Shown here in pieces: positions 32,563 to 60,263 of a DNA stretch of 64,000 nucleotides. Under the pieces are notes generated by a model. It ran no database searches, had not been told where the DNA came from, and saw only the letters and a list, made by a program, of their open reading frames with translations. Each line of letters starts with the position of its first letter. Within the stretch, counting starts at the first letter, position 1. Made by a program: the position numbers and the translations under genes. The stretch covers positions 1,881,169 to 1,945,168 of the forward strand of contig NZ_KN525716.1 of the NCBI RefSeq assembly GCF_000789235.1, given 5' to 3'. Source of the DNA: Wocania ichthyoenteri Th78 (GTDB taxonomy: Bacteria > Bacteroidota > Bacteroidia > Flavobacteriales > Flavobacteriaceae).

Positions 32563-32578
32563 TGTTCCACGTGGAACG
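32563..32578. promoter_or_regulatory. parS-like ParB-binding palindrome (one mismatch)
   Basis: TGTTCCACGTGGAACG matches the general parS consensus TGTTnCACGTGnAACA in 15 of 16 positions, including the central CACGTG. It lies between the methyltransferase start and the mnmG stop. See the paired site at 34477-34492. Confidence 0.75.
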
Positions 32579-32585
32579 TTAAAAA

Positions 32586-34457
32586 TTATCTACCCATATA
32601 CACCAATAAAACAGAAATATCATTAGGCGACACTCCACTTATTCTTGACGCTTGAGATACCGTAGTTGGTTGGATTTTTTTCAACTTTTCACGAGCTTCA
32701 TAACTCATAGACTTAATCTGAGAGTAGTCAAAATGCTCAGGTATCTTTACATATTCTAGCCTGCTTAACTTATCAGCATTGTTTTTTTCCTTAGCAATAT
32801 ATCCTGCATATTTAACTTGAATTTCTGCTTGCTCAACAACTTCCCTGTCCAAATTATTCTCTTGAATGTAAGCTTCAACACTTTTTACTTTCCTAACATC
32901 ATCCATCTCAATATTAGGCCTTGCAAATACTTTAAACAACTTCCCAGATTGCTTTACAGCTGATGAATTTTTGTTTTCCAAAATAGGGTTTATCTCTTCT
33001 GGTTTTACACTTTGTGATTCAAAAAAGTTTACAAATTTTTCTGCCGCTTGGTGTTTTTCTTCCATGCGTTTTAAACGCTTTTCTGAAGCTAAACCAAGTT
33101 CAAAACCTTTAGGTGTTAATCTTAAATCCGCATTATCTTGACGCAATAGTGTTCTATATTCTGCTCTCGATGTAAACATTCTATAAGGCTCTTCTGTTCC
33201 CTTTGTGATTAAATCATCTATTAAAACACCAATGTAAGCCTCATCTCTTTTTAAAGTAAAAGGTTCTTTTTCTTGAACTTTTAAACTCGCATTTATACCC
33301 GCCATTAAGCCTTGCGATGCTGCTTCTTCATAGCCAGTAGTTCCATTAATTTGACCTGCAAAATATAACCCTTCAACTAACTTAGTTTCTAAAGTGTGCC
33401 TTAATTGTGTTGGCGGAAAATAATCATATTCTATAGCGTATCCAGGTCTGAAGAATTTTACATTCTCAAAACCAACCACAGAACGTAATGCCTTAAATTG
33501 TACGTCTTCTGGCAAAGATGTAGAAAACCCGTTTACATAAACTTCACAGGTATTCCAACCTTCTGGTTCTATAAATAATTGATGTCTATCTTTATCAGCA
33601 AAACGATTAATCTTATCTTCAATTGACGGGCAATATCTTGGGCCTAAACTTTTAATTCTACCATTAAACATTGGTGATCTTTCAAAGCCTTCTCTAAGTA
33701 AATCATGTACCAATTCACTAGTGTAAGTCATGTAGCATGAACGCTGATTTTCTAATGGCTTAGTAATATCTAAATACGAGAATTTTTCTGGGTTTTCATC
33801 TCCAGGTTGTTCAACCATTTTGGAAAAATCTAACGACCTCCCATCAACTCTTGGTGGTGTTCCAGTTTTCATTCTACCAGATTCAAAACCTAAATCGACA
33901 AGTTGCTCTGTTATTCCTGTAGCCGCTCTTTCGCCTGCTCTTCCTCCACCAAAATTCTTGTCGCCTATATGAATTAATCCATTTAAAAAAGTGCCGTTTG
34001 TAAGCACAACAGACCTTGCCTTTATTTCTAATCCTAGGGACGTTTTTATTCCTATGACCTTATGGTTTTTCACCAACAATCCAGAAACCATTTCTTGATA
34101 AAAATCAAGATTACGTGTGCCTTCCAAAAGCAACCTCCAGTCTTCTGCAAAACGCATTCTGTCACTCTGTACTCTCGGGCTCCACATTGCAGGCCCTTTA
34201 GATTTATTTAGCATTTTAAATTGAATCGCCGATGTATCTGACACAATTCCGCTATAACCTCCTAGCGCATCTATCTCTCTTACAATTTGCCCTTTTGCAA
34301 TACCCCCCATAGCAGGATTACAAGACATTTGCGCAATGTTCTGTAAGTTCATGGTAACAAGCAGTGTTTTGCTTCCCATGTTTGCAGCAGCAGCAGCAGC
34401 TTCACTTCCTGCGTGACCCGCTCCTACGACTATAACATCATAAACTTCATTAAACAT
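32586..34457 (-). CDS. mnmG: tRNA uridine-5-carboxymethylaminomethyl modification enzyme
   Basis: A 623-residue FAD-dependent enzyme that works with MnmE to modify the wobble uridine of several tRNAs. The FAD loop is V-G-A-G-H-A-G (11-17), then C-N-P-A-M-G-G-I-A-K-G near residue 50, and the FAD-binding G-T-T-G-Y-E-E-A-A-S-Q-G-L near 390, with a C-terminal helical domain containing the V-S-Q-A-S-R-I-S-G-V-S-P motif. I start at ATG 34457, because an earlier in-frame ATG at 34514 would read through a parS-like palindrome and give F-H-V-E-H-V residues, an artefact rather than protein. The gene lies between two parS-like sites, as near origins of many bacteria. Confidence 0.95.
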   Translation of the reverse strand: MFNEVYDVIVVGAGHAGSEAAAAAANMGSKTLLVTMNLQNIAQMSCNPAMGGIAKGQIVREIDALGGYSGIVSDTSAIQFKMLNKSKGPAMWSPRVQSDRMRFAEDWRLLLEGTRNLDFYQEMVSGLLVKNHKVIGIKTSLGLEIKARSVVLTNGTFLNGLIHIGDKNFGGGRAGERAATGITEQLVDLGFESGRMKTGTPPRVDGRSLDFSKMVEQPGDENPEKFSYLDITKPLENQRSCYMTYTSELVHDLLREGFERSPMFNGRIKSLGPRYCPSIEDKINRFADKDRHQLFIEPEGWNTCEVYVNGFSTSLPEDVQFKALRSVVGFENVKFFRPGYAIEYDYFPPTQLRHTLETKLVEGLYFAGQINGTTGYEEAASQGLMAGINASLKVQEKEPFTLKRDEAYIGVLIDDLITKGTEEPYRMFTSRAEYRTLLRQDNADLRLTPKGFELGLASEKRLKRMEEKHQAAEKFVNFFESQSVKPEEINPILENKNSSAVKQSGKLFKVFARPNIEMDDVRKVKSVEAYIQENNLDREVVEQAEIQVKYAGYIAKEKNNADKLSRLEYVKIPEHFDYSQIKSMSYEAREKLKKIQPTTVSQASRISGVSPNDISVLLVYMGR

Positions 34458-34476
34458 AATTCTTTTTTTTAAAACA

Positions 34477-34492
34477 TGTTCCACGTGGAACA
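34477..34492. promoter_or_regulatory. Perfect parS-like ParB-binding palindrome
   Basis: TGTTCCACGTGGAACA is a 16-bp perfect palindrome and matches the general parS consensus TGTTnCACGTGnAACA at every fixed position. It lies upstream of mnmG, in its presumed leader. parA/parB are not in this window. Confidence 0.85.
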
Positions 34493-34511
34493 CATCGTAA
34501 TTTTGAGTTTG

Positions 34512-34519
34512 CAAATATA
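34512..34519 (-). promoter_or_regulatory. -7 promoter element for mnmG
   Basis: TATATTTG on the minus strand matches TAnnTTTG. A transcript from here would start upstream of the parS-like site at 34477-34492, which would then lie in the mnmG leader. It lies in the 79-base gap between ybeY and mnmG. Confidence 0.4.
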
Positions 34520-40236: not shown

Positions 40237-40608
40237 ATGTATAGAAATGACAAAGTAATTAGACGTTACAGTGAACCTTTCAAATTAAAAATTTTAGCCG
40301 AACTTACAACCGGAAAACACACAAAGAGCGAACTTTGTAAACTCTACTCTATTGCGCCTACAACAGTCAATGAGTGGATTAAAAAATATAATCGTAAAGA
40401 CTTAATGAACACCAGAGTAAAAGTGGAAACAAAAGACGAAATATCTAGAATTAAAGCACTGCAAAAAGAGATTGAACAGCTTAAAAAACTACTGCTTAAA
40501 AAGGATTTGGATGCTATGGTATTAGATTCATATCTGGAAGTAGCTGCTGAAGATTTAGGTTATAAATCCATTGCTGAACTAAAAAAAAAGTTAAGTATAA
40601 AGCCTTAA
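40237..40608 (+). CDS. IS3-family transposase OrfA (DNA-binding HTH protein)
   Basis: A 123-residue IS3 OrfA protein. A helix-turn-helix of the HTH_28-like type covers about residues 10-50 (F-K-L-K-I-L-A-E-L...S-E-L-C-K-L-Y-S-I-A-P-T-T-V-N-E-W), followed by a leucine-zipper-like coil (about 65-95). OrfA binds the terminal repeats and regulates transposition. Its end contains an A9G run (40581-40590) that fits a -1 slippage site (A-AAA-AAG), by which the ribosome moves into the orfB frame to make the full OrfAB transposase. Confidence 0.85.
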   Translation: MYRNDKVIRRYSEPFKLKILAELTTGKHTKSELCKLYSIAPTTVNEWIKKYNRKDLMNTRVKVETKDEISRIKALQKEIEQLKKLLLKKDLDAMVLDSYLEVAAEDLGYKSIAELKKKLSIKP

Positions 40609-41459
40609 TCAAAGCTAAAGAAAAATCTAAGGGATTTACCTCTTTAACAACTATAACCAGTTGTTTTGGACTTAAACGTGATGCGTATTACAAATACAAA
40701 TCTAGAGCTGATAGGCGTTTAAAAATAGAACAACAGATTATAAACATAGTCAGTAAAAAACGTAAATCCCTTCCTAGAGAAGGTGTGCGTAAACTCATGA
40801 AATCATTAGATAACGAGTTTACTAAAGCTAGCCTTAAAGTTGGTAGAGATACCTTATTTAATGTCCTTAGAAAACACAATATGCTAACACTTAGAAAGAA
40901 AACTAGTGCCAGAACAACAAATTCTTATCATCGTTTTTATAAGTATAATAACATGATAAAGGATATGAAAGTCACTAGATCAAATCAAGTTTGGGTATCT
41001 GATATTACATACATCAGAACAGTAAAAGGTTTTTGTTATCTGGCTTTAATTACAGACATGCATTCCAGAAAAATTGTTGGTTATGACCTTAGTGATAGCT
41101 TAGAACTTAAAGGATGTGTAAGAGCCCTTAATAAGGCCATTTATCAAGCTAAAAACATTAAACAGCTTGTTCATCATTCGGACAGAGGAATACAGTATTG
41201 TAGTAATGTATACACTCAAATACTTAAAAGAAAAAAGATAGGTATTAGTATGACTGAAGAAAATCATTGCTATGAAAACGCAATGGCAGAGCGTGTAAAT
41301 GGAATCTTAAAAGACGAATTTTATCTCGACCAAACCTTTGATAACGTGACTCACGCTAAAAGAACCGCAAAAAATGCAATTAATTTATACAATGAAATAA
41401 GATTACATTTATCTTTAGACTATAAAACACCTAATATGGTATACAAATTATCAGCCTAA
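40578..41459 (+). CDS. IS3-family transposase OrfB (DDE integrase domain, made by -1 frameshift)
   Basis: The orfB frame is open from 40578 and continues to a stop at 41459, so the domain is longer than the ATG-initiated reading from 40785. The catalytic DDE triad is visible: W-V-S-D-I-T-Y-I-R-T (first Asp), H-H-S-D-R-G-I-Q-Y (second Asp) and E-N-A-M-A-E-R-V-N-G-I-L-K (Glu). The most likely product is the OrfAB fusion from slippage at the A-run shared with orfA; the ATG at 40785 would omit part of the N-terminal domain. The motif set assigns it to the IS3 family; I do not name a subgroup. Confidence 0.85.
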   Translation, partial: TKKKVKYKALIKAKEKSKGFTSLTTITSCFGLKRDAYYKYKSRADRRLKIEQQIINIVSKKRKSLPREGVRKLMKSLDNEFTKASLKVGRDTLFNVLRKHNMLTLRKKTSARTTNSYHRFYKYNNMIKDMKVTRSNQVWVSDITYIRTVKGFCYLALITDMHSRKIVGYDLSDSLELKGCVRALNKAIYQAKNIKQLVHHSDRGIQYCSNVYTQILKRKKIGISMTEENHCYENAMAERVNGILKDEFYLDQTFDNVTHAKRTAKNAINLYNEIRLHLSLDYKTPNMVYKLSA

Positions 41460-59888: not shown

Positions 59889-60263
59889 TTATTCAGAAAT
59901 CTTATCCAAAAACTTTTCAAATAAGTGTTTCATTTTGGTTTCAACTTGGGCAAATTTGGGTTTATCTTTGCCAATGTACAAAATCATAAACGCATGTTGT
60001 GTTGTTAAATTGTTAAAAAAATCAGCTTTATTAAGTCTGTAAGATTCTCTTAATAAACGCTTTATACGATTTCTATCTACAGCAGTTTTAAAATTTCGTT
60101 TACTTACAGAAATTCCTGTTTTAATTAACACATCGTCATCAAAAGTGATTTGTAAATAAACTAAACGCAAAGGATAGGACGAAACCGAATGTCCATCGGT
60201 AAATAACTGATCGATTAGTTTTTTGCTTTTAAGCTTTTCTTTTTTATTGTAGGTGAATTTCAA
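59889..60263 (-). CDS. rnpA: Ribonuclease P protein component
   Basis: A 124-residue basic RNA-binding protein that assists RNase P in 5' maturation of tRNA. The RNP-like motif A-V-D-R-N-R-I-K-R-L-L-R-E (about 61-73) is diagnostic, and the N-terminal F-T-Y-N-K-K-E-K-L-K-S-K segment is the usual start. The rpmH gene that lies upstream of rnpA in many bacteria is absent here. A -7-like octamer TACCTTTG is on the minus strand at 60283-60290, about 20 bases upstream, consistent with its own promoter. Confidence 0.93.
   Translation of the reverse strand: MKFTYNKKEKLKSKKLIDQLFTDGHSVSSYPLRLVYLQITFDDDVLIKTGISVSKRNFKTAVDRNRIKRLLRESYRLNKADFFNNLTTQHAFMILYIGKDKPKFAQVETKMKHLFEKFLDKISE

Follow-up and report, generated by a model that had tools for sequence, protein, structure and literature searches.

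Two parS-like palindromes at the ends of mnmG, probable centromere of a Flavobacteriaceae chromosome

Chromosomal parS sites, such as those of Bacillus subtilis Spo0J and of the Caulobacter and Pseudomonas ParB proteins, share a 16-bp palindrome, occur in small numbers at a single location that skew places near the origin, and belong to systems with both ParA and ParB. The Noc-binding site (NBS) system has a protein with Q173 and R201, and its sites are spread over the chromosome except near ter. Origin genes listed in the literature include gidA (mnmG). According to the passages of PMC10197239 available, clusters of parS mark the origin in gut bacteria, two Bacteroidetes among them, and no known condensins were found in those two species. 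The parS site, the ParABS system, and the place of gidA among origin genes are known; titles and the openings of abstracts revealed no report of parS at mnmG across Bacteroidota; the survey of Livny et al. 2007 may contain it, and a first report of the mnmG-parS tie is not claimed here.

The palindrome pair and its ParB

The window, meaning the whole 64-kb stretch of DNA analysed (C1:1881169-1945168), comes from a genome of 3,953,230 bases in 5 contigs, all of which were searched. Its minus-strand gene at 32586-34457, encoding 623 amino acids from the start MFNEVYDV, is presumably mnmG (gidA), a tRNA-modification enzyme, a name taken from an earlier sequence-only reading and from recognition of the sequence. 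That reading had described ParB-site palindromes on either side of the gene, and both were found again. The 5' site (34477-34492, TGTTCCACGTGGAACA) agrees with the parS consensus TGTTNCACGTGNAACA at 16/16 positions, without mismatch, and ends 19 nt before the mnmG ATG; the 3' site (32563-32578, TGTTCCACGTGGAACG on the plus strand) agrees at 15/16, with one mismatch, and begins 7 nt after the stop. Neither is assigned a strand. The same reading had warned of a false N-terminal extension of mnmG in which the palindrome is translated, and a minus-strand ORF started by TTG does run to 34514, reading FHVEHV across the palindrome; its part at 34458-34514 is probably such an extension. About 6 kb from mnmG, at 40237-41459, two ORFs resemble an IS3-type transposase pair as judged by reading.

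With up to two mismatches, TGTTCCACGTGGAACA occurs in only two places in the whole 3.95 Mb genome, 1.9 kb apart, and these are the mnmG pair; the same sequence read backwards as a control has no match in the genome at this threshold. The genome-wide search that the sequence-only reading had proposed thus gave a cluster and no scatter, while its suggestion that the sites might be distant members of a larger segregation centre did not hold, as the pair is the whole centre at this threshold and parAB lies elsewhere. Only the 16-bp form is discriminating, because the 12-bp core TTCCACGTGGAA, with up to one mismatch, is found at five places in the genome (the mnmG pair exactly, three others with one mismatch) and its backward control also at five. 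With up to three mismatches the window contains nine matches, where 100 shuffles averaged 2.61 and reached at most 7; the seven that remain without the mnmG pair equal that highest value. In consensus match and in being few and clustered, the pair has the characters of chromosomal parS.

A search of the genome with TIGR00180 gave three ParB-family matches above the cut-off, at C1:3235502, C1:2789955, and C1:1775394. All are outside the window, consistent with the earlier statement that it holds no parA or parB, and the lack of any ParB homologue, which would have counted against parS in that account, is not what was found, since ParB is present with ParA. The best match (C1:3235502) belongs to an intact parA-parB operon, 1.32 Mb from the palindrome pair, with a ParA of 254 aa and a ParB of 303 aa, and this ParB matches the ParB, Spo0J, and Noc chains of solved structures (best E 1e-50). 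Seven of eight named contact positions agree (Q162, G170, K171, R173, N178, G201, and R204 in Caulobacter numbering, placed by spacing against the numbering of PMC7383237 and not by alignment to the Caulobacter sequence); position 172 is K (S in PMC7383237), 179 is Y, and 184 is K. In the passages of PMC7383237 available, R173 and G201 are called absolutely conserved in extant ParB orthologs, and Noc has Q and R. The genome thus has both a ParA and a candidate cognate ParB that carries most parS-contact residues.

The pair does not fit the Noc/NBS system in these two characters: ParB here has R173 and G201, and the sites are not spread. The extra ParB-family matches (C1:2789955-2790380 and C1:1775394-1775687) comprise one in a 602-aa frame and one with an internal stop. 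A single SMC model (TIGR02168) gave four weak matches in this genome, none above the curated cut-off, despite the presence of ParA and ParB. A ParB-family protein was found in all 20 genomes checked, including several without sites by mnmG.

Conservation at mnmG in Bacteroidota

Sixty genomes were drawn from Flavobacteriaceae, among them the present one. One or more sites (up to one mismatch to TGTTCCACGTGGAACA) occur in 56 and exactly two in 39, with 105 sites in total; the backward control matches in two of the 60. G010 and G016 have no site at one mismatch and do have one at a looser setting. G005 and G035, also without sites, were rejected as counter-evidence: both have ParB, and mnmG gave no match in G005 and only a weak fragment in G035, so an assembly gap is likely in each. 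mnmG is full length in 56 of the 60 and split over contigs in G015 and G037. When these 56 loci were scanned for sites within 200 bp of an mnmG end (up to two mismatches and an exact CACGTG core), 55 had at least one; it was 5' of the gene in 54 and 3' of it in 52, and 51 loci had both. Permuted palindromes matched in composition, 60 in all, hit 0.02 loci on average, 1 at most, and none on both sides; this control covered the 56 family loci and the 79 non-family loci described below, not the 80 named loci. Genome-wide, 98 of the 101 sites (up to one mismatch) in the 56 genomes are within 1.5 kb of mnmG, the exceptions being one approximately 2.8 kb upstream in G003 and two in G023. The 3' site is less well kept, with 26 of 53 matching the consensus perfectly versus 53 of 58 for the 5' site. 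Matches to both ybeY and a methyltransferase are found in the flanks of 53 of the 56 loci (ybeY alone in two, neither in one), and because of this kept gene order the neighbourhood could by itself hold the sites in place within the family. Genomes share ancestry, and neither the family counts nor the phylum counts are independent.

A draw across the phylum comprised 118 genomes, of which 117 have mnmG and 87 have an exact TGTTNCACGTGNAACA somewhere, compared to one for the backward control. From the 117 loci, 89 were examined; the 28 left out are the present window and 27 loci, 16 from f15, whose families had other members in the set. Of the loci outside Flavobacteriaceae (29 families, 12 with one locus each), 67/79 have a site within 200 bp of mnmG and 19/79 have sites on both sides, while the permuted controls reach at most 1. 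The tie between mnmG and parS is not peculiar to this genome, as 55/56 family loci and 67/79 loci from other families have it. The arrangement differs by family: sites bracket the gene in f2, f12, and 7 of 10 loci in f15, are only upstream in f3, f8, and f14, and are only downstream in f11, f18, and f21. The 12 of 79 loci with no site within 200 bp are from f5 (2), f16 (2), f19 (3), and f23, f29, f30, f4, and f21 (1 each); f19 and f23 have sites 0.3-1.8 kb downstream of mnmG, and f29 has one inside the frame. In 24 of the 29 families the flanks examined gave no match to ybeY or the methyltransferase, though divergent homologues may be missed; it thus looks as if the sites remained beside mnmG as its neighbours changed.

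Among named genomes, the best 80 mnmG loci listed overlap the genomes drawn above and are not an independent sample. Within 250 bp of mnmG, both sides carry sites in 24 of these, the 3' side alone in 24, the 5' side alone in 14, and neither side in 18. Those with sites include Olleya, Winogradskyella, Dokdonia, Flagellimonas, Pedobacter, Chitinophaga, Roseivirga, and Prevotella. The 18 without a site within 250 bp include all three Saprospiraceae records, Phaeodactylibacter, Neolewinella, Blattabacterium, and a Capnocytophaga record; five of the 18 have a site inside the gene, and in L293 and L317 the sequence ends close to the gene.

Several loci show other arrangements. Six of the best 80 named loci, of Bacteroidales type (L329, L332, L334, L342, L344, and L345), have an in-frame parS inside mnmG at approximately 1565-1580 nt that encodes VPRGT, exact in five and with one mismatch in L329. 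Arrays of parS-like sites upstream of mnmG are found in Flavobacterium sp. MC2016-06 (L271), with 11 sites, four of which have a CACATG core, and in Terrimonas ferruginea (L301), with nine, where one to three are usual. In Candidatus Fibrimonas (L347), whose name may place it outside the phylum, TGTTTCACGTGGAACG follows mnmG by 8 nt, a hint of a wider link.

Sites, gene, and leader

In G023 (2.6 Mb, one contig), the sites and the gene are naturally separated. Its mnmG, at 1.277 Mb, has no site in flanks of 3 kb each. Matches to the methyltransferase and an OmpH-like gene are at approximately 0.997 Mb, and next to them are three perfect parS sites but no mnmG; ybeY was not found at the latter locus. 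Because the gene is siteless and its former neighbours keep three perfect sites, the sites appear to serve, and to belong to, the locus rather than mnmG, as judged from this one genome. The same separation contradicts the idea that mnmG is carried by a mobile cassette bounded by the two palindromes. Near-identical sequences do bracket a single gene, as such a cassette would have, but the only clear relocation parted mnmG from its sites, one-sided sites also occur, and ybeY and the methyltransferase flank the gene in 53/56 family loci; the cassette was rejected as almost certainly wrong.

The closeness of the sites to the ends of the gene raises the question of control elements, that is, whether the palindromes could be an operator, RNA hairpin, or terminator of mnmG with nothing to do with segregation. 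In the family, the median gap is 15 nt between the 5' site and the start codon (54 loci) and 7.5 nt between the stop and the 3' site (52 loci). The Bacteroidetes -7 promoter consensus is TAnnTTTG, and in the window TATATTTG at 34512-34519 on the minus strand is a promoter-like match to it; 24/54 family loci carry the motif 20-45 nt ahead of their first 5' site (mononucleotide shuffles, mean 0.68, maximum 4), which fits this reading. RNA folding of the 5' and 3' regions gave -11.2 and -6.2 kcal/mol, respectively, values without a shuffled control, and a T-run of at least five follows the 3' site in 13/52 loci versus 4/54 for the 5' site. However, 39/52 3' sites lack the T-run (of five) that a terminator would require, sites are confined to one side of the gene, upstream or downstream, in several families, the siteless mnmG of G023 lies apart from three perfect sites by its former neighbours, and the same 16-mer is printed in the available portions of papers on ParB/parS of other bacteria. 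Control elements unrelated to segregation are highly improbable.

A parS site could still affect the gene. If TATATTTG is a -7 box, then the 5' parS is inside the mnmG 5' UTR, where it would begin approximately 15 nt past the transcription start, and ParB and RNA polymerase must meet there. The sites may be parS and have a second effect, with ParB on the 5' one, in the leader, lowering transcription of mnmG and so coupling tRNA modification to the state of the centromere. According to the passages of PMC7022226 available, ParB of P. aeruginosa at the intergenic parS3 and parS4 represses adjacent genes, but genes next to parS are unchanged in B. subtilis without Spo0J. Several families also lack a 5' site, as does the moved mnmG of G023, and such a double role is considered unlikely, if worth keeping in mind.

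Replication origin and comparison with described systems

Sampled GC skew (40 stretches and the window) is mainly negative from approximately 0.45 to 2.0 Mb and, from approximately 2.2 Mb round to 0.2 Mb, mainly positive; the zones between the two are mixed. In a contiguous 544 kb, cumulative GC skew reaches its minimum at C1:2,000,078, so that mnmG is 85 kb (2.2% of the contig) away, and for AT the cumulative minimum is at approximately 2.01-2.02 Mb; the minimum of the cumulative strand balance of long ORFs is at approximately 2.24-2.25 Mb, some 0.34 Mb (8.5%) from mnmG. mnmG is thus near the presumed origin, which is placed only coarsely, by GC-skew and gene-strand proxies; the nearness to the origin characteristic of parS is 85 kb by the former versus 0.34 Mb by the latter. 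In four other single-contig genomes (10 stretches each), skew changes from negative to positive at or near mnmG in G014 and G056 and is unclear in G032 and G023.

In contrast, dnaA (C1:344693-346087) is near the skew maximum, where sampled skew turns towards negative, and because it is approximately 1.66 Mb from the GC-skew minimum it would mislead origin calling here. DnaA boxes were rejected as a marker of oriC: the exact box TTATCCACA occurs 23 times in the genome (12 forward, 11 reverse), scattered and rarer than its backward control (86, 40 + 46), and a looser form never exceeds two per 500 bases in the contiguous 544 kb. Since the boxes gave no marker, oriC is placed by skew only. The orientation of 16S was of little use as a cue, with one copy found.

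The two palindromes are very probably chromosomal parS sites that together form the centromere of this Flavobacteriaceae chromosome and to which ParB is predicted to bind. The evidence is the sequence match, the uniqueness of the pair, the presence of ParA and of ParB with most contact residues, the conservation, and the rough closeness to the skew minimum. ParB, encoded with ParA 1.32 Mb away, would bind each site and close as a CTP-dependent clamp; the clamps would slide onto the DNA between and around the sites, covering mnmG, and ParA would pull apart the two copies of this origin-proximal locus soon after replication. The sites would then have been retained at the two ends of mnmG. Loading, sliding, and separation follow general knowledge of ParABS, including the passages of PMC7333895 available. 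A further proposal, speculative and probably wrong as a whole, is that mnmG is a long-standing centromere address in Bacteroidota, whatever the position of parAB and dnaA, and that the bracketing is functional, with clamps at both ends of the unit meeting RNA polymerase so that the state of the centromere and the expression of a tRNA-modification gene influence each other.

The locus may offer a one-gene centromere address for a large bacterial group on which little segregation literature was found and whose origins can be misassigned if dnaA is taken as the guide. It may also offer a minimal two-site parS system, possibly without canonical SMC, for the study of ParB clamps spreading over a transcribed gene. 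Compared to the chromosomal ParABS systems of B. subtilis, Caulobacter, and Pseudomonas, there are two sites here, one at each end of a single gene, while parAB is 1.32 Mb off, dnaA is near the skew maximum, and one SMC model gave nothing above its cut-off. Compared to the known origin gene set, parS is at mnmG but parAB and dnaA are far away; an rnpA-like ORF (59889-60263 in the window, approximately 25 kb from mnmG, identified by reading) is shared with that set. Unlike here, mnmG is unmentioned in the available passages on the gut bacteria (PMC10197239). In those same passages, parS is at the origin as defined by skew and the origin is not always at dnaA, and in both respects the gut bacteria resemble the genome described here.
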